From Clostridia bacterium (lineage in GTDB: Bacteria > Bacillota > Clostridia > Oscillospirales > CAG-272): a stretch of 10,701 nt of DNA. Each line of letters opens with the position of its first letter. Positions within the stretch are counted from its first letter, which is position 1. Of the stretch, positions 2-10,701 are shown piece after piece. Position numbers and translations under genes: made by a program. The notes below the pieces were generated by a model. The model saw only the letters and a program-made list of their open reading frames with translations, made no database searches and was not told the DNA's origin. The stretch is taken from contig JAFYRH010000132.1 in NCBI GenBank assembly GCA_017559555.1, forward strand, positions 1 to 10,701, written 5' to 3'.

Positions 2-1462
2 AAGACCTACACCGGCAAGATGATCCTCAAGGCAGACACTACAATTAAGAATGTAAACTTCGACGGCAAGGGTTACAACGGCTACGCAGTTGAAACTCGT
101 GGTGCAAGCTACGTTACCATCGAAGATTGTACCGCAGCGAACTACGGTTACGGTTTTGTACAACTTGCATCCGCAACTGCTCTTACCACTGTAAAGAACG
201 TTACTGTTAGCAACATGAACTACGGTGTAAAGGTAGACTACAGTGGCGCAGTTGTTCTCGAAAACGTAGACATCACCGCAGGTGTTGCAGCGGTTCTCAA
301 CTCCAACTACGGTGAAAAGACCATTACTATTAAGAATAGTAAGCTCAACATTCTCGGCACATGGACGAGAAACAACACAACCAAGACCACCTACGTATTT
401 GAAGGCGCGAACACTGTTGGTCAGTTCAAGACTGATGCAGCTATTGATAGCTTTAAGCTCGTAGTTGACGCAACTCTCACTGCTCCTGAAGGTTTGACTG
501 TTATTAGCGGTAGTGAATTGAATAAAGTAGAGTATACGAATGGCACCTACCACGTAGTTACTACCGTTGGTGTTGAGTATACCAACATGAGATTTGGCAA
601 CAGCCTCTCCCTCATCTTCGCTATCGGCGGCGAGGGTAAGTTCGGCTTGACTAACGGAGATTATGTAATCATTACTCACAAGATTGCTGACGGCAAGGGT
701 ACTATCGAAAAAGTAACACTTACTCATGGCGAGGGTCTGGATTGGACTGTTGTTACTATCGACGGCGAACAATATTACGCAGTTGAATTTAGTGGTCTTG
801 CAGCAAAGCAAATGACGGATGAAGTTTCTGTTCAAATCTTTTCCAAAGACGGTGTTGCATTGAGTCCTGTATTTACCACCAGCATTCGTGAATATGCAAT
901 GAAGAGATTGAACGCAGCTGAAGCAGCACCTGAATTCAAAACACTTGTTATCAATATGTTGAATTACGGTGCAGCTGCTCAAAAGTATTTCGAGTACAAC
1001 GAAGATAATCTTGCAAATGCAGAATTGGGTCAAACATCCGGTACTGTTACTTTCCCGAACAATTATGTATCCGGCGAATATTTGTTGGGTGTGAGTGCAA
1101 GATTTGATAACACAACTTCGTTGATCTTCAAGTTCAGCAGTAGCATGGAACAAGAAGGCATGAAAGCAGTATTTACCTATACAAATCACTATGGAGTAGA
1201 ATGCACTGTTGATGGAACTATCTCTGTGGATACTGCCGGTGATTTTGTAGTTGAACTGAAAGACCTCACTCTTGCTGATGCACGTCAGGTTGTTACCTGC
1301 ACCATCTACGGAGCAGACGGTGAGACGATTATTACCGAGGTTCAAGACAGTATTGCTTCCTACTGTGGCAGATCCACTGAGGCTGTGATGGTAGCTCTTG
1401 CTGAAGATTATATGAAGTTTGCAGATTCTTCTTATGCATATTTGCATCCTACTAAGAAATAA
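2..1462 (+). CDS. Secreted beta-helix surface protein, C-terminal part (partial)
   Basis: The reading frame is open from the left edge, so the true start and any signal peptide lie outside the window; 486 residues are visible. The first ~160 residues are short imperfect repeats rich in Asn, Thr, Val and Gly with alternating hydrophobic residues (such as TIKNVNFDGKG and TIEDCTAANYG), the pattern of a right-handed parallel beta-helix of the pectin-lyase type. From about residue 195 there are two related modules, each starting with F-x-N-x-x-SLIF, then a beta-rich stretch containing a DG turn, an SI-x-(E/S)-Y-x-x-R segment and a helix with YGAAAQKYF or LAEDYMKF. Similar tails are common on large surface proteins of gut clostridia. 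No LPXTG or other anchor is seen at the end. The role is probably at the cell surface, in adhesion or glycan binding, but no catalytic residues can be named. The stop lies 20 bases before the next small gene, so co-transcription is likely. Confidence 0.85.
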   Translation, partial: KTYTGKMILKADTTIKNVNFDGKGYNGYAVETRGASYVTIEDCTAANYGYGFVQLASATALTTVKNVTVSNMNYGVKVDYSGAVVLENVDITAGVAAVLNSNYGEKTITIKNSKLNILGTWTRNNTTKTTYVFEGANTVGQFKTDAAIDSFKLVVDATLTAPEGLTVISGSELNKVEYTNGTYHVVTTVGVEYTNMRFGNSLSLIFAIGGEGKFGLTNGDYVIITHKIADGKGTIEKVTLTHGEGLDWTVVTIDGEQYYAVEFSGLAAKQMTDEVSVQIFSKDGVALSPVFTTSIREYAMKRLNAAEAAPEFKTLVINMLNYGAAAQKYFEYNEDNLANAELGQTSGTVTFPNNYVSGEYLLGVSARFDNTTSLIFKFSSSMEQEGMKAVFTYTNHYGVECTVDGTISVDTAGDFVVELKDLTLADARQVVTCTIYGADGETIITEVQDSIASYCGRSTEAVMVALAEDYMKFADSSYAYLHPTKK

Positions 1463-1482: not shown

Positions 1483-1629
1483 ATGAAAAAATATCAAGCA
1501 CCTCAAATCGAGGTAGTAAAATTTGAAGTAGAGGATGTTATTACCGCTTCTCTCTTCGGTAGTAAGTTTGACTCCTTCAATCTTGGTGAATGGAGCAAAA
1601 ATGATACATCAAGCGCCAATTGGGTATAA
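1483..1629 (+). CDS. Small RiPP-like precursor peptide with YxxPxI leader motif (48 aa)
   Basis: ATG start with AAAGGAG at 1465-1471, 11 bases upstream, and a stop at 1629. The peptide starts MKKYQAPQIEVVKFEVEDVI and ends SSANWV. Seen directly: Y4-x-x-P7-x-I9, acidic residues at 15, 17 and 18, Thr21, then a different C-terminal half rich in Ser, Phe, Asn and Gly, with FDSFNLGEW at 29-37 and Ser/Thr at 38 and 42-44. Established knowledge: lasso-peptide leaders have a YxxPxL motif recognised by PqqD-like RiPP recognition elements, and a conserved Thr just before the core. Inference: residues 1 to ~22 are a leader and the rest a core or target. From memory, small clostridial proteins of this KKYxxPxIE...EDVI type are widespread and uncharacterised. 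No signal peptide or membrane segment is present. The PqqD-like, kinase-like and peptidase-like genes downstream support a modified-peptide reading; a small structural protein is the alternative. Confidence 0.8.
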   Translation: MKKYQAPQIEVVKFEVEDVITASLFGSKFDSFNLGEWSKNDTSSANWV

Positions 1630-1642
1630 TCTCTAATTGCGC

Positions 1643-1702
1643 CCCCAGGCTTCGGCCTGGGGCATGAGCCCGACTCTTTTCGGACTTGTGCCCCAGGCCG
1701 AA
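1643..1702 (+). repeat. GC-rich nested inverted repeats with UUCG hairpin between the two small peptide genes
   Basis: A perfect 8-bp stem, CCCCAGGC (1643-1650) against GCCTGGGG (1655-1662), closes a TTCG tetraloop and begins 13 bases after the stop of the 48-residue peptide. The right half, 1651-1664, is also the exact reverse complement of 1689-1702. A second, longer hairpin (arms 1651-1673 and 1680-1702, about three mismatches, loop ~6) can therefore form, but not together with the first. No run of T follows either stem, so neither is a classical intrinsic terminator. The element ends about 10 bases before the ribosome binding site of the next gene. It could be an RNA-stability or processing element, a translation switch, or a copy of a dispersed palindromic repeat. 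Confidence 0.75.
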
Positions 1703-1729
1703 ACATTCAAAAGAGAGGAAATTATAAAT

Positions 1730-1936
1730 ATGTTTGAAAACAAGTACGTAAAAATTGCTATTCTTGCGGCAGCTGTTGTTTTGATGGTTGTCGTTATTAT
1801 CTTGGCTTTTGGACGTGACAGCGCACTTTTTCCCGATAGAGGAGAGGTGACCACTGTTGAAACAGAGCAAACGACGGTTAAAGAATTGGGTACCTATCCC
1901 CCCTTTGATGATTCCAATGTGGGCGAATGGCATTGA
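1730..1936 (+). CDS. Small single-pass membrane peptide sharing the FDxxNxGEW motif (68 aa)
   Basis: ATG at 1730 with AGAGAGGA at 1712-1719. An in-frame upstream extension (TTG at 1637) runs through the hairpin and is not credible. The product has a short N-terminus (MFENKYVK), a hydrophobic segment at about residues 9-27 (Ile, Leu, Ala, Val), then a ~40-residue polar tail rich in Thr, Glu and Val. Basic residues flank both sides of the membrane segment, so topology is not clear. The tail ends PPFDDSNVGEWH. Residues 59-67 (FDDSNVGEW) match FDSFNLGEW of the preceding peptide at six of nine positions, with synonymous differences in shared codons (GAT/GAC, GGC/GGT), so this looks like protein-level similarity. 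I do not recognise the family. It might be a second substrate carrying a membrane anchor instead of a leader, or an immunity, anchor or partner protein. Confidence 0.75.
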   Translation: MFENKYVKIAILAAAVVLMVVVIILAFGRDSALFPDRGEVTTVETEQTTVKELGTYPPFDDSNVGEWH

Positions 1937-1957
1937 TTTTTTTAACTGTATAAAACA

Positions 1958-2662
1958 ATGAAACGGTACTATCAAATCACCGACCTTATTGTCGAAATGG
2001 ATACGTTTGGGCGCACCGAGCGGCAGGCGGTTCCTTATCTTGCAGACGGTGTGCAAAAAACGGATATTTTGATCGATTCGAAGTGGCAAAGCTTTCGCGA
2101 AAAATTCCCGTTTATATCCGAAGACGAGAGCGAATATTATTGCTCGGCATATAGCTTTTACACACAACTGGTCGACTTTAACGGCATGATGCTGCATTCC
2201 TCTGCGGTTGTAAAGGATGGGCGTGCGTATCTCTTTTCCGCTCCCAGCGGAACGGGCAAGTCCACGCACACACAGCTATGGCTCGAGGTTTTTGGCAAGG
2301 ATGTCACCATTCTCAATGACGACAAGCCTGCTCTTCGCCGCATCGACGGCACATGGTATGCCTACGGCACCCCGTGGAGCGGCAAACACGACATTAGCAT
2401 CAACACGCGTGTCCCCTTGGGCGGAATTTGCGTTTTGCGTCGCGGTGACGTGAACAAAATTGAGCCTTATCGCGGAGTGGGAGCTATCAAAGATATCTTT
2501 GAGCAAGCTCCAAAATACACAAATTCGGATTACGTAGGCAAGCTTTTGGATTTGCTGAATCAACTCCTTTGTGAGGTTCCCGTTTGGCAAATGGATTGCA
2601 ATATGGATCCCGAAGCTGCTCGCATGTCCTATGCGGCGATGTCGGGGCGAAAGGAAAACTAA
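1958..2662 (+). CDS. HPr kinase/PEP-carboxykinase-like P-loop protein
   Basis: The 234-residue product has a Walker A loop, SAPSGTGKST (94-103), followed by LNDDKPAL (119-126), in the position of the acidic metal-binding motif, and YGTPWSGK (136-143), typical of HprK-like proteins lacking the N-terminal HprK domain. The N-terminus (MKRYYQITDLIVEMDTF) fits the family, so ATG 1958 is chosen even though no clear Shine-Dalgarno sequence precedes it (upstream TTTTTTTAACTGTATAAAAC). Established knowledge: stand-alone HprK-like kinases in lasso-peptide clusters (paeninodin type) phosphorylate a Ser near the precursor C-terminus, while true HPr kinase/phosphorylase acts on HPr Ser46 and is about 310 residues. 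Its place one base before a PqqD-like gene favours a peptide-tailoring role, with the Ser/Thr-rich end of the upstream peptide as a candidate substrate; that link is inference. The weak initiation context could keep the enzyme below the peptide level. Confidence 0.85.
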   Translation: MKRYYQITDLIVEMDTFGRTERQAVPYLADGVQKTDILIDSKWQSFREKFPFISEDESEYYCSAYSFYTQLVDFNGMMLHSSAVVKDGRAYLFSAPSGTGKSTHTQLWLEVFGKDVTILNDDKPALRRIDGTWYAYGTPWSGKHDISINTRVPLGGICVLRRGDVNKIEPYRGVGAIKDIFEQAPKYTNSDYVGKLLDLLNQLLCEVPVWQMDCNMDPEAARMSYAAMSGRKEN

Positions 2663-2663
2663 A

Positions 2664-2924
2664 ATGAAACTGAAAAAAGGATTTGTTCTCCGCGAGGTCG
2701 CGGGCGAGACCGTTGTTGTCCCCGTTGAAGCAGAGTTGAATTTTAACGGAATGATCACGCTCAACGAAGCTGCAAAGGTTTTGTGGAGTGTTCTTGAAAA
2801 TGAAACAAGCACAGAAGATCTCGTCAAAGCAATTTTGTCTGAGTTTGACGTAGACGAAAAAACTGCTCAAAACGACGTTGATGCGTTTGTTCAAAAACTG
2901 AAAGGACTTGATTTCCTTGAATGA
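2664..2924 (+). CDS. PqqD-like RiPP recognition element protein
   Basis: ATG 2664 lies one base after the upstream stop, with AAAGGA inside the end of the kinase gene. The 86-residue product is the normal size for a stand-alone PqqD-family protein and has the expected order: strands FVLREVAG and TVVVPVEAE (7-24), FNGMITLNEAAKVLWSVLE (27-45), a helix DLVKAILSEFDVD (52-64), and a final helix DVDAFVQKLKGLDFL (71-85). Established knowledge: PqqD proteins have a winged-helix-turn-helix fold that binds leader peptides of ribosomally made peptides and delivers them to modifying enzymes. In lasso systems the equivalent B1 protein reads YxxPxL in the leader. Here the obvious candidate ligand is the 48-residue peptide with YxxPxI. 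PqqD-like genes also occur beside capsule genes without a known peptide, so partner identity is inference. Confidence 0.9.
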   Translation: MKLKKGFVLREVAGETVVVPVEAELNFNGMITLNEAAKVLWSVLENETSTEDLVKAILSEFDVDEKTAQNDVDAFVQKLKGLDFLE

Positions 2925-3372
2925 AAAACAAGTAACACTTGATGAATTGATGCCTCTCATTCGAGAGCAACTGGCTGCCGGACAAACGGTTACGTTCTTT
3001 CCGCACGGCGTCAGTATGCTTCCTTTGATTCGCGAGGGTAGAGATTCGGTAACGTTATCTGCTCCCCCAAAAAGGCTGAAAAAATACGACGTTGCGCTTT
3101 TTCAACGCGCAAACGGGCAGTATATTTTGCACCGCGTGGTGCGCTGTGGCGAGACCTACACCTTTGTGGGTGATAACCAGGTGCATCTCGAAAAAAACGT
3201 TCAACAAGAGCAAATAATCGCTATATGTACTGCGTTTTCGCGAGATGGTAAGCGTATATCGGCGCAGGCTTTTGGGTTGCGTTTGTATGCAGTTTTATGG
3301 AGCTTGCTGCGTCCTTTCCGCAGGGTGGCTTCGGCTGTTTTTCGCAGAGCTTGCAACATTTTGCGAAAATAA
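2917..3372 (+). CDS. S24/S26-type signal-peptidase-like protein with Ser-His pair
   Basis: TTG 2917 is chosen as start: AAAGGA at 2901-2906 is 10 bases upstream, whereas TTG 2908 is too close to it. The start overlaps the pqqD-like gene by 8 bases, suggesting translational coupling. The product is 151 residues. FPHGVSMLPLI (28-38) contains the presumed nucleophile Ser33, YILHRVV (69-75) has His72-Arg73 where bacterial type I signal peptidases carry a Lys, and FVGDNQ (83-88) is the conserved GDN box. Ser-His is the arrangement in SipW and eukaryotic-type signal peptidases. There is no N-terminal membrane anchor; instead a hydrophobic and basic amphipathic stretch lies at 119-148 (RLYAVLWSLLRPFRRV). 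It may cleave a leader or an exported peptide. It could instead be a regulatory or inactive relative. Confidence 0.8.
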   Translation: MNEKQVTLDELMPLIREQLAAGQTVTFFPHGVSMLPLIREGRDSVTLSAPPKRLKKYDVALFQRANGQYILHRVVRCGETYTFVGDNQVHLEKNVQQEQIIAICTAFSRDGKRISAQAFGLRLYAVLWSLLRPFRRVASAVFRRACNILRK

Positions 3373-3408
3373 AAAAAGACATTGCATTCTTAGAAGGGAG
3401 TGAGCAGG

Positions 3409-4623
3409 GTGGAGAATATTCTTTTGCCAAAATCTCAAAAAACACTTTTGTCGTTGGTTGGGCACGGCTTGTTCTCGACACCCCTGACGCTTGATCAAGA
3501 CGTCGATTGGAAAGAGGTCTTCTCCGAAGGAATGATGCAAGCGGTCGCTTTGCTTGCCTTTCAAAACTACAAGGAGCTTCCTTTGGATGAGGAAACTGCG
3601 GCTCTTGTTCAAAAGCACGTGAAGGAGAGCACAAAAGAGAATTTATTTTGCTTTCATTCTCACAAATATTTGCATAATCTAATGACCAAAAACAACAAAA
3701 CGTATTGCATTATTAAGGGCGCGGCATCGGCTTACCGATATCCCGATTCGCTTCTGCGCAATATGGGTGACGTTGATTTTTACGTTCCTTTTGACAGATT
3801 CGAAGAAGCACTTGCACTGCTTTTGGCAGAGGGCTTTCAAAAGATTCCCGGAAATCATTCCTACCACGTTACTCTTTTAAAAGGCGGAATGGATTTGGAG
3901 TTGCATTTTAGACCCTTGGCGACACCGGATGGGGAATTGGAATCTGTTTTTTATGAGTATTGGTCTGATATTTTTGAAAAATCAAAACTAACAAACGACG
4001 GTTTTGGCAGTTATGTTTTTCCGTCGGATTTTCACCATGGCTTTATTTTGCTGACGCACTTACAATCGCATCTGCTTGCAGGCGGTGTTGGTCTGCGTCA
4101 CGTTTGCGATTGGGCGGTGTTTGCAAATGCGTTTTCAAACGACGAGTTTGTTTCACTGTTCGAGCAAAAATTAAAGCGTGTTGGTCTTTGGCGTTTGGCG
4201 CAGGCGTTGTCTTTGGCATCCGTTAAACACCTGGGAGCGACACATTGTGAGTGGATGGGGGATGATTTTGCCCTTGCGGATGCGCTTCTTGCCGACATTC
4301 TCTGCGGTGGCAATTTTGGGCGCAAGGATAGGCAAAGGACCTATGAGGGGTTGTTTATTTCCGATACCGCAACGGCGGGAACGGGGAAGAACCGTTTTTC
4401 GCAAATCATTCGTTCGATGAACCGTATGGTGGATTATAATTGGGGATGGGTGGCAAAAATGCCGATATTCTATCCCGTTGGTTGGCTGTGGCTTTCCTTG
4501 CGTTTTTTGTTCCGTGTGTTAACGGGCAAGCGTCGGCTGCACCTGGCAAGCACGCTCAAAAAAAGCGGTGAGCGCAAAAAGCTGTATGAGGATCTTGCCT
4601 TGTTCAAGCCCGAAGAGGATTGA
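3409..4623 (+). CDS. Nucleotidyltransferase-like protein (PF14907-type)
   Basis: GTG 3409 is preferred because GAAGGGAG (3393-3400) is 8 bases upstream, while GTG 3400 overlaps that site; the product is then 404 residues. CIIKGAASAYRYPD (about 100-113) followed by NMGDVDFYV (118-126) is the Gly/Asp-x-Asp nucleotidyltransferase motif with D121 and D123, and MDLELHF (161-167) supplies the likely third acidic residue. GLRHVCDWAVF near residue 230 matches a conserved helix of this family. The C-terminal ~100 residues contain an aromatic hydrophobic stretch (PIFYPVGWLWLSLRFLF) and a basic end. The family is uncharacterised; from memory, members occur with HprK-like and PqqD-like genes, including lasso-peptide clusters, and beside exopolysaccharide loci. 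A nucleotidyl transfer to peptide or sugar is possible, but no substrate can be named. This is the last gene of the first operon. Confidence 0.8.
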   Translation: MENILLPKSQKTLLSLVGHGLFSTPLTLDQDVDWKEVFSEGMMQAVALLAFQNYKELPLDEETAALVQKHVKESTKENLFCFHSHKYLHNLMTKNNKTYCIIKGAASAYRYPDSLLRNMGDVDFYVPFDRFEEALALLLAEGFQKIPGNHSYHVTLLKGGMDLELHFRPLATPDGELESVFYEYWSDIFEKSKLTNDGFGSYVFPSDFHHGFILLTHLQSHLLAGGVGLRHVCDWAVFANAFSNDEFVSLFEQKLKRVGLWRLAQALSLASVKHLGATHCEWMGDDFALADALLADILCGGNFGRKDRQRTYEGLFISDTATAGTGKNRFSQIIRSMNRMVDYNWGWVAKMPIFYPVGWLWLSLRFLFRVLTGKRRLHLASTLKKSGERKKLYEDLALFKPEED

Positions 4624-9190: not shown

Positions 9191-10701
9191 TTAGCTCCAG
9201 AATTCAATGGTGTTGATCATCGCTCTGTATCCGCCGGAAACTGTTGTCAATGTAACAGTTTTGGTTGTGGATGTGTCGATAACGATTACATCATATTCGC
9301 CATTGTTGGATGCCTTAGTGAGGGTGTGGGTTGTACCGTTGATGGTAACCTTAGCTGTGTTAGTCTTATATTTTGCAACATAGATAATAACTTGGTTTAC
9401 ATCTGCGCCAACGGTGAAGGAGAACTTACCAGCAGCGGAGCCGGTACCCAGCTTCAAGCAGGAGTTACCCTTTGCGTCACGAGCGCTAGCATATACCTTG
9501 GAAGCGCCGGAAAGTGCAAGAGTGTAGCCGTTTGCAGTGTAGGACTTGGAAGAGCCTATATCAGAACCGTCATTGTGGCTTGCAGAGCCGTTTGCACCAA
9601 AGTCAAAGGTTGCAAGGATTTCAGGTTCAGCAGGAGCATCGCTACCGCCGATTTCTTCGCCGCATTTTTCGCAAGTGCCTTCCTCGGTGGTGTGACCGAG
9701 AGCCTCGATGGTTTCAGTAATGGTGTTGAGTTCACATACGGTGCAAACCTTGGTGATGGAGCCGTTTGCTGTGCAGGTTGCTTCAACTTCTTTGGTTACT
9801 TCGTATACGTGCTCACAAGCAACAATTTCATCTATCCAACCGCTCTTCATTTGTGCGGTCTTACCATCATAGGTACCGATAACACCCCAAACGGTGATTT
9901 CATCACCAACACCGGGTTTGCTTGCCAATGCATTGTATTGGGTCTTGCCGTCTGCGGAGTACAGACCGTAAATGTAGAACTTGTTGCCTTCTTCATCTTG
10001 AATGTAAACGTTACCAAAGGTTTCGTTTGCAATTTCAACAATAACACCGGTTACATAGTATTTGTCGGTTGTATAGGTGTTTGATGCGTGTGCAAGACCA
10101 AGCTTGTTAGCCTCTGTGATAGTCAATGCTTCGTCTGCATTAGGAGCAACAACTGCGCTACAAGTGTCGCACTTGTAGTTGCCGTCTTCGTCAGCGTGAC
10201 CGAGAGCTGCTACTTCGTCTGCCTTGTAGGTGTCGCCACAAACGGAGCAAGTGTAGGTTGTGTAACCCTCTGCGGTGCAAGTGGGGTTGGTTACAGCGCT
10301 TTCGTAGGTATGAGCGATCATATCTACATAGTCAGCGTCATAAGTCTCGCCACAAGCGCAGGTGTAGGTGGTATAACCTTGTGCTGTGCAGGTAGGAGCG
10401 GTAACAACGGGTGTGTAGGTGTGTTCGTGAGAGAGGGTGGGAAGAATGTCTTCTACGATATCATCGCAGTTAGCGCATTCTTTGTGTTGGAGACCTTCTG
10501 CTTCTTCGGTGGGTTCTACATCAACGATCCAATCGCCGTAGGAGTGACCGGTAGCGGGGATCTCTTCTTGTTCTTCGAACCATTCGCCACAGATAAGGCA
10601 ACGAGAGCCTTCGGTGAGACCGTTTTCGGTGCAGGTTGCGTCCTTACCTTCAACGGTAACTTCGTTGTGATCGCAGGTTTGACCTGCGGTAACGGTGATG
10701 C
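9191..10701 (-). CDS. Large secreted Cys-repeat protein with OB-fold-like domain, C-terminal part (partial)
   Basis: The frame is open to the right edge, so the start is outside; about 502 residues are visible, ending INTIEFWS. Four Cys modules come first (about 10670-10150), each built on T-C-T-x-x-G-x-x-x-Y/R-C-x-x-C-G and often closing with a GH-type turn (ATGHSYG, AALGHAD). One has CxCG instead of CxxCG (YTCACGETY), a one-residue contraction. Next, at about 10129-9821, is an OB-fold-like domain (YYVTGVIVEI, VYIQDEEGNKFYIYG, GDEITVWGVIG). Another Cys module follows at about 9817-9659 (CEHVYEV, KVCTVC, CEKCGEE), and a beta-sandwich-like domain at about 9619-9194 (KVTINGTTHTL, VIVIDTSTTKTVTLTT). 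Such Cys modules recur in large secreted proteins of gut clostridia. The paired Cys suggest zinc or disulfide stabilisation. Function is unknown; no catalytic or cell-wall anchor motif is seen in this part. Confidence 0.87.
   Translation of the reverse strand, partial: ITVTAGQTCDHNEVTVEGKDATCTENGLTEGSRCLICGEWFEEQEEIPATGHSYGDWIVDVEPTEEAEGLQHKECANCDDIVEDILPTLSHEHTYTPVVTAPTCTAQGYTTYTCACGETYDADYVDMIAHTYESAVTNPTCTAEGYTTYTCSVCGDTYKADEVAALGHADEDGNYKCDTCSAVVAPNADEALTITEANKLGLAHASNTYTTDKYYVTGVIVEIANETFGNVYIQDEEGNKFYIYGLYSADGKTQYNALASKPGVGDEITVWGVIGTYDGKTAQMKSGWIDEIVACEHVYEVTKEVEATCTANGSITKVCTVCELNTITETIEALGHTTEEGTCEKCGEEIGGSDAPAEPEILATFDFGANGSASHNDGSDIGSSKSYTANGYTLALSGASKVYASARDAKGNSCLKLGTGSAAGKFSFTVGADVNQVIIYVAKYKTNTAKVTINGTTHTLTKASNNGEYDVIVIDTSTTKTVTLTTVSGGYRAMINTIEFWS

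Follow-up and report, generated by a model that had tools for sequence, protein, structure and literature searches.

A probable Clostridial variant of the linear polyphosphorylated peptide system, tied to cell-surface proteins

Linear Polyphosphorylated Peptides (LPP) were described in May 2026 from Paenibacillus alginolyticus, where the cyclase-free gene set lppA-K-B-S-D-N lies inside capsule loci (PMC13381572). Expression of the genes in B. subtilis showed that the kinase adds several phosphates to Ser3 of the core, that the protease cuts after the last Thr of the leader with the assistance of a RiPP recognition element (RRE; RiPP, ribosomally synthesized and post-translationally modified peptide), and that deletion of the NTP transferase has no visible effect (PMC13381572). 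The paper gives the leader consensus as YxxPxVLxHQxIxFETxxS and counts one to three precursor open reading frames (ORFs) per cluster; the final product and the role of the NTP transferase are unsettled there, and the biological role is left open (PMC13381572). A kinase and a nucleotidyltransferase are also found in lasso clusters, according to another report (PMC7533575). Here we describe a related locus in a Clostridia bacterium. Its source genome (1.66 Mb in 384 contigs, 69% complete) contains contig C191, and all 10,701 bases of this contig make up the stretch analysed, which we call the window. We read the genes between 1483 and 4623 as an LPP-type RiPP locus, a Clostridial variant tied to cell-surface proteins, with a probability of roughly 0.78. 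Both the facts of the sequence and the reading as LPP type have good support.

On the + strand, a cut secreted-type gene is followed by peptide A, a hairpin, protein B, the kinase, the RRE, the protease, NTP_transf_5 and exopolysaccharide genes:

2..1462, + strand: secreted-type protein, a beta-helix region (PF13229, E 1.4e-6) and then two tandem C-terminal domains (CTD-2), predicted to be immunoglobulin (Ig)-like
1483..1629, + strand: precursor peptide A, 48 aa, ATG at 1483 to stop at 1629, a leader family member
1650..1702, + strand: long RNA hairpin between the peptide A and protein B genes, found by folding, with a similar element in locus L045
1731..1936, + strand: small membrane-anchored protein B, 68 aa, with one hydrophobic segment, a Thr/Glu-rich stalk and the tail PPFDDSNVGEWH
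1958..2662, + strand: HprK-like kinase (LppK-like), 234 aa, with sub-cut-off NCBIfam matches and a conserved P-loop
2664..2924, + strand: discrete RRE, PqqD-like (LppB / lasso B1-like), 86 aa, by Pfam PqqD and a profile match to solved RREs
2917..3372, + strand: SipW/archaeal-type signal peptidase-like leader peptidase (LppS-like) with Ser/His/Asp, by TIGR02228 below cut-off and alignments
3409..4623, + strand: NTP_transf_5 nucleotidyltransferase-like protein (LppN-like), by PF14907 at 103.2 bits
4777..9014, + strand: capsule/exopolysaccharide genes, namely a chain-length protein, a CpsD-like ATPase, a CpsB phosphatase, a small secreted-looking protein and LytR-CpsA-Psr

This arrangement is beyond chance, because it recurs in other genomes. 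Start codons are ambiguous for the protease (TTG 2917 or 2908) and for the NTP_transf_5 gene (GTG 3409 or 3400), and the protein of 2..1462 shows no signal peptide because the 5′ end of its gene is cut by the contig edge. A preliminary description of this DNA, made from the letters alone, had placed five tightly spaced + strand genes here, beginning with a 48-residue peptide bearing Y4, P7, I9 and T21, and had seen in them a RiPP-type cluster with a lasso-like leader and an RRE that is not a standard lasso cluster; all of this holds. It missed the membrane-anchored peptide gene at 1731-1936 between peptide and kinase, and precursors beside secreted proteins lay beyond its view. As it had said, scans of the window's proteins gave no match to a cyclase, a radical SAM protein or a transporter, nor, in the window to which this search was limited, to a transglutaminase-like B2 leader peptidase. 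Its label 'uncharacterised' is out of date, because PMC13381572 describes the same enzyme set in P. alginolyticus. The single terminator that it reported was not recovered by a pattern scan for an operon-end terminator; a stem of AAGAGG and CCTCTT around a 10-nt loop, with a T-run, was seen by eye to overlap the stop at 4621-4623 and is only plausible in that role.

Peptide A has a ribosome site, AAAGGAG, 11 nt upstream of its start and a leader, M1-T21, that reads Y4xxP7xI9...E17D18V19I20T21. The sites of cleavage and modification were placed by analogy with LppA; on this basis the putative core is A22-V48, with S23 a candidate phosphoserine. From 72 locus peptides and 120 listed database peptides, the leader consensus is [YF]xxPExExxxFxxED[IV]ITxS, and a database search with the leader model found 606 proteins among 864 candidates at E ≤ 0.01. 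Ser at P+16 is present in 120/120 listed database peptides and 63/72 locus peptides, and Thr at P+14 in 99% and 78% of these sets, a conservation that is partly circular because both sets were collected with the leader model; the co-occurrence test that follows is less so.

Among 147 relatives, 68 were RRE-positive at E ≤ 1e-6 and 64 were leader-positive at E ≤ 0.05; the reversed leader model, our control, was positive in 1/147. The leader is present in 57/68 RRE-positive vs 7/79 RRE-negative genomes, counts that ignore genome kinship. When the 14 genomes that supplied seeds are removed, it is present in 44 of 55 RRE-positive and 6 of 78 RRE-negative genomes, although seeds from named loci may include further genomes of the set. 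In this reduced set the difference is seen both within the window's genus (26/26 vs 2/8) and outside it (18/29 vs 4/70). The preliminary description had let its proposal depend on whether the peptide is kept next to the PqqD-like gene in related genomes, and the leader is indeed conserved and co-occurs with that gene. A wider search of the seven leader-only genomes turned up both enzymes in G074; G132 gave the kinase, and G075 a short match to it.

The named kinase loci that we examined are the best 80 of 591 confirmed, and their record titles are largely those of Clostridia metagenome-assembled genomes (MAGs). Within 4 kb and on the same strand, 60 of them carry an RRE, 40 a protease, 31 an MsbA-like ATP-binding cassette (ABC) exporter and 18 an NTP transferase. 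A precursor lies near the kinase in 13/60 loci with an RRE vs 0/20 loci without one; a looser motif finds further precursor-like peptides (e.g. L085, L093, L104, L118), which are outside these counts. Three of the 23 precursors within 4 kb of a same-strand kinase sit where the contig ends; of the remaining 20, 14 come no more than 60 nt after a gene on the same strand, two are second precursors of a string and four do not fit. A cyclase motif matched three genes near the 80 loci, two of them GMP synthases (L105, L147); the third (L101, opposite strand) presumably resembles a tRNA-thiolation enzyme.

Some relatives of the kinase depart from this pattern. Close kinase homologues at 20 of the 80 loci (e.g. 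L088, L094, L098) have neither a detected RRE within 4 kb nor a precursor, and we regard them as a second context for the kinase family. In the variant at loci L059 and L077, PqqD and an HprK-like kinase accompany a peptide whose core contains cysteine; it reads MKKTYEKPMVYFEELS... in L059 and is similar in L077. The next genes in L059 encode a radical SAM protein, recognized by Pfam, and an ABC transporter, and L077 has a neighbour of the same size. Kinase-RRE-protease loci also appear in MAGs labelled Lentisphaeria, Thermoguttaceae and Planctomycetes (L092, L109, L111, L131), outside Bacillota, where contamination is possible.

Pfam gives no match to the HprK-like kinase at E ≤ 1, and NCBIfam gives two below cut-off (ScmC, E 6e-7; HprK_rel_A, E 5e-4); the P-loop of the kinase, GxGKxTH, is invariant in an alignment of 23. 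The RRE matches Pfam PqqD with 64.1 bits (E 1.5e-17), and its profile matches the solved lasso and LPP RREs TbiB1 (E 6e-10), TfuB1 (2e-8), PbaB1 (3e-8) and LppB (9x8z, 7.9e-6). Its N34, D71 and F75 align with N33, D70 and F74 of LppB, with a numbering offset derived from the residues named in the LPP paper; the Asn and the Asp, which hold the YxxP motif in LppB, are both kept. The protease matches archaeal-type signal peptidase I below cut-off (TIGR02228, E 7e-5); its S31, H70 and D84 do not vary in two alignments, one of 23 and one of 26, and D84 is the candidate counterpart of LppS D93. The nucleotidyltransferase matches PF14907 at E 2.2e-29.

By analogy with LPP, we propose that the YxxPxI leader of peptide A would bind the discrete RRE and that the HprK-like kinase would put at least one phosphate on S23, a serine that stands two residues past the conserved Thr. 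The leader would then be cut off after T21 by the signal-peptidase-like protease, which would be presented with the RRE, to give a linear peptide of ~27 aa, which an ABC transporter encoded elsewhere would export. More speculatively, the nucleotidyltransferase may add a sugar or nucleotide to this phosphate. It is unlikely that the same parts instead serve another chemistry, in which the kinase would activate a residue for cyclization, dehydration or nucleotidylation and leave no lasting (poly)phosphate. The half of the leader near the cut site, which is unlike that of LPP, and the radical SAM enzyme added in L059 speak for such a pathway, as does the nucleotidyltransferase, which had no detectable effect in the LPP study (PMC13381572). 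Set against these, the Ser directly after the cleavage Thr is kept as in LPP, the enzyme set is the same, and the protein scans of the window returned no radical SAM match.

The LPP-type reading gains a second element from the genes beside the precursors. We examined 49 loci around leader matches, three of which (L227, L231, L232) are also close to the RRE match in the genome concerned. A precursor often begins 10-25 nt 3′ of a large gene whose product has a hydrophobic N-terminus. Over all loci there are 75 precursors above 18 bits, or 73 when two duplicates are removed. By a signal-peptide test that is a crude hydrophobicity rule, 28 of the 73 are preceded, at no more than 60 nt and on the same strand, by a gene with a start resembling a signal peptide, against a background of 128/1459 genes; when contig-edge cases are excluded the count becomes 28/50. 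The others comprise 11 with an edge-cut same-strand gene within 60 nt, nine with a same-strand gene at that distance that has no detected signal peptide, eight at a contig edge and 17 others.

Many of these upstream proteins share a domain. CTD-1 (~115 aa) is present in 22/51 of them, at or near the C-terminal end and in two cases ~347 residues before it; of the 20 proteins scanned with Pfam, 12 carry CTD-1, and Pfam names no such domain in any of them. CTD-2, a second type, occurs in several others and in the window's upstream gene, where it stands in tandem at residues 194-330 and 362-481. An AlphaFold2 model of these two domains has a mean pLDDT of 86.8, and CTD-2 domains are predicted to be Ig-like sandwiches with C-terminal helices. 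The window's upstream gene thus fits the pairing of precursor and CTD. One or other domain is found in 28/48 upstream genes vs 12/1407 other genes of the same loci with duplicates removed (28/50 vs 12/1429 with duplicates kept), a comparison that is favoured by domain models built from upstream genes. For seven of the 12 other genes, a precursor was detected on the opposite side, no more than 300 nt away. In the reverse direction, from CTD-1 to precursor, we judged by eye 14 of 18 matches in G020, 6 of 11 in G034, 9 of 15 in G146 and 11 of 17 in G104. In 12/14 cases in G020 (nine with a strict YxxP) and 5/6 in G034 (four strict), the match is followed, no more than 24 nt on, by a short leader-like ORF that has a good ribosome site; G146 has 2/9, at 161 nt and with identical peptides. 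Outside the window's genus, the leader is present in 10/12 genomes with CTD-1 vs 25/100 without it.

Because precursors are so often encoded next to large secreted proteins, we propose a surface role, which is speculative: the product would most likely act with the large secreted protein, either on the cell surface or within the exopolysaccharide. A broader form of this proposal, to which we give somewhat less than even odds, is that the LPP machinery of Oscillospirales and other Clostridia works in trans as a service for the cell surface rather than as a self-contained natural-product cluster. One enzyme set would serve many unlinked precursors, each encoded together with its own large secreted protein. 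That protein would often bear a characteristic C-terminal domain, some pairs would include a further partner of the S-layer, lipoprotein or membrane-anchored kind, and the phosphorylated or glycosylated peptides would be partners or linkers of surface proteins. Adjacency and co-occurrence are the observations that point to it. We found neither the co-occurrence of leader and RRE nor the pairing with secreted proteins in the literature searched. If each precursor does belong to its secreted protein, then its role becomes testable, as binding, anchoring or decoration of that protein by the mature peptide, and precursor searches that look only inside the enzyme cluster can overlook many substrates, with as many as 18 leader matches in one genome.

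Several observations weigh against reading the locus as an LPP-type system tied to surface proteins. A model-detected precursor lies within 4 kb in just 13/80 kinase loci, 11/68 RRE-positive genomes have no detected leader, and the source genome has one detected precursor and one CTD-1 match. Four of the seven leader-only genomes (G001, G020, G037, G044) yielded neither kinase nor RRE in the wider search. One of them, G020, is 94% complete and has many pairs of secreted protein and precursor (L261-L274); an assembly gap, divergent machinery or relics could explain it. The pairing is also uneven: beyond the advantage that the domain models give to upstream genes, no leader-like ORF followed CTD-1 in the 11 cases examined in G104, and within the window's genus leader presence does not track CTD-1 (21/26 vs 8/9). 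As a single sequence, the window's RRE matches TbiB1 (E 1e-4) and PbaB1 (0.002) better than LppB (0.4), and an MsbA-like exporter gave no match among the window proteins scanned. The leader, finally, does not follow the LPP consensus, with which it shares YxxPx[hydrophobic] and the order Thr...Ser alone, and its Tyr-to-Thr distance is 17 vs 15 in LppA.

These points bear on a further explanation, by which the short peptides are co-expressed accessory peptides of the secreted proteins and the kinase-RRE-protease set acts elsewhere, for example on the exopolysaccharide machinery. Leader matches are most numerous in G017 (18, the maximum), G027 (12) and G004 (10), and among the 31 of these 40 that are listed with their place, 0/31 are on the contig of the genome's RRE match; this, and the many precursor-like ORFs of G020 beside no detected enzymes, would be expected of accessory peptides. 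We nevertheless consider this explanation quite improbable, given the genome-wide co-occurrence of leader and RRE, the RRE-binding motif of the peptides themselves and the confinement of kinase-near precursors to loci with an RRE.

Two elements between the precursor and the kinase add to the description of the LPP-type locus. The region 1620-1735 has a folding energy of -49.4 kcal/mol (z -5.6), with a strong hairpin at about 1650-1702. This hairpin and L045 11318-11377 are 79% identical over 62 nt in two genera, and both still fold; following the precursor gene, it perhaps serves mRNA processing or the tuning of expression. Protein B ends in FDDSNVGEW, similar by eye (unscored) to FDSFNLGEW in peptide A. 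Small lipoprotein-like proteins whose stalks are acidic and rich in Thr/Glu, with Trp in the tail, also lie downstream of precursors in L201, L265, L272 and L276, and the Trp-containing tails of such small lipoprotein or membrane peptides are of the PLDSWTHNY and NQNWTDNY type. Genes of the protein B type are uncommon, because few loci pass a filter for small stalk proteins: 3/75 precursor loci (the window and L201 alike) and 3/20 domain loci of G020 and G034. Four loci, those of Herbivorax (L105) and of a Desulfotomaculaceae MAG (L156) together with L101 and L045, encode an S-layer homology domain protein between precursor and kinase, where the window has protein B. At the far end of the window, on the - strand (9191-10701), is a long secreted-looking protein with repeated Cys-rich motifs of the EATCTANGSITKVCTVC type.

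It is very improbable that the locus is one piece of a lasso cluster, with the cyclase and the transglutaminase-like peptidase encoded in another part of the genome: the lasso-like leader, the B1-like RRE and the known presence of kinase and nucleotidyltransferase in lasso clusters (PMC7533575) point that way, but the source genome (69% complete) has no asparagine-synthase family protein, no cyclase was recognized by motif near the 80 homologous loci, and the signal-peptidase-like protease occupies the place of the lasso peptidase. Compared with known systems, the window resembles the paeninodin-like lasso clusters with an HprK-like kinase and a nucleotidyltransferase in its types of RRE, kinase and nucleotidyltransferase and in the logic of leader docking. 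It differs from them in that the window proteins scanned include no cyclase or B2 peptidase match, in having Tyr rather than Trp in the motif, and in having Asn rather than Gly at the motif-reading position of the RRE. The SynChlorMet cassette (ScmC/ScmD) and the HprK-related kinase A family (TIGR04249, TIGR04352) are similar in the kinase and, for ScmD, in the RRE, at scores below the curated cut-offs, and differ in that the window has no radical SAM match.

The likeness to LPP is closer. The window holds A, K, B, S and N of the LPP set: a precursor, a probable HprK-like kinase with a conserved P-loop and profile support below cut-off, a discrete RRE of the Tyr-motif kind with the Asn and Asp that fix YxxP, a leader peptidase of the SpI/SipW type with Ser/His/Asp, and an NTP transferase gene (PF14907). 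No macrolactam cyclase was found among the window proteins scanned or in the source genome, 69% complete. The setting is a capsule locus, with Thr before and Ser just after the putative cut. The differences, besides the leader consensus and spacing given above, are that Ser stands two residues after Thr here vs three in LPP, that no exporter is among the window proteins scanned, and that relatives here also have precursors scattered beside secreted proteins. Named organisms with homologous loci include Ethanoligenens harbinense, by inference, and Acetivibrio alkalicellulosi, whose record carries an unverified-contamination flag. Collectively, these comparisons extend LPP-type systems to rumen and gut Clostridia, and because its leader and genomic setting differ, we place the window locus as an LPP variant rather than a strict member.

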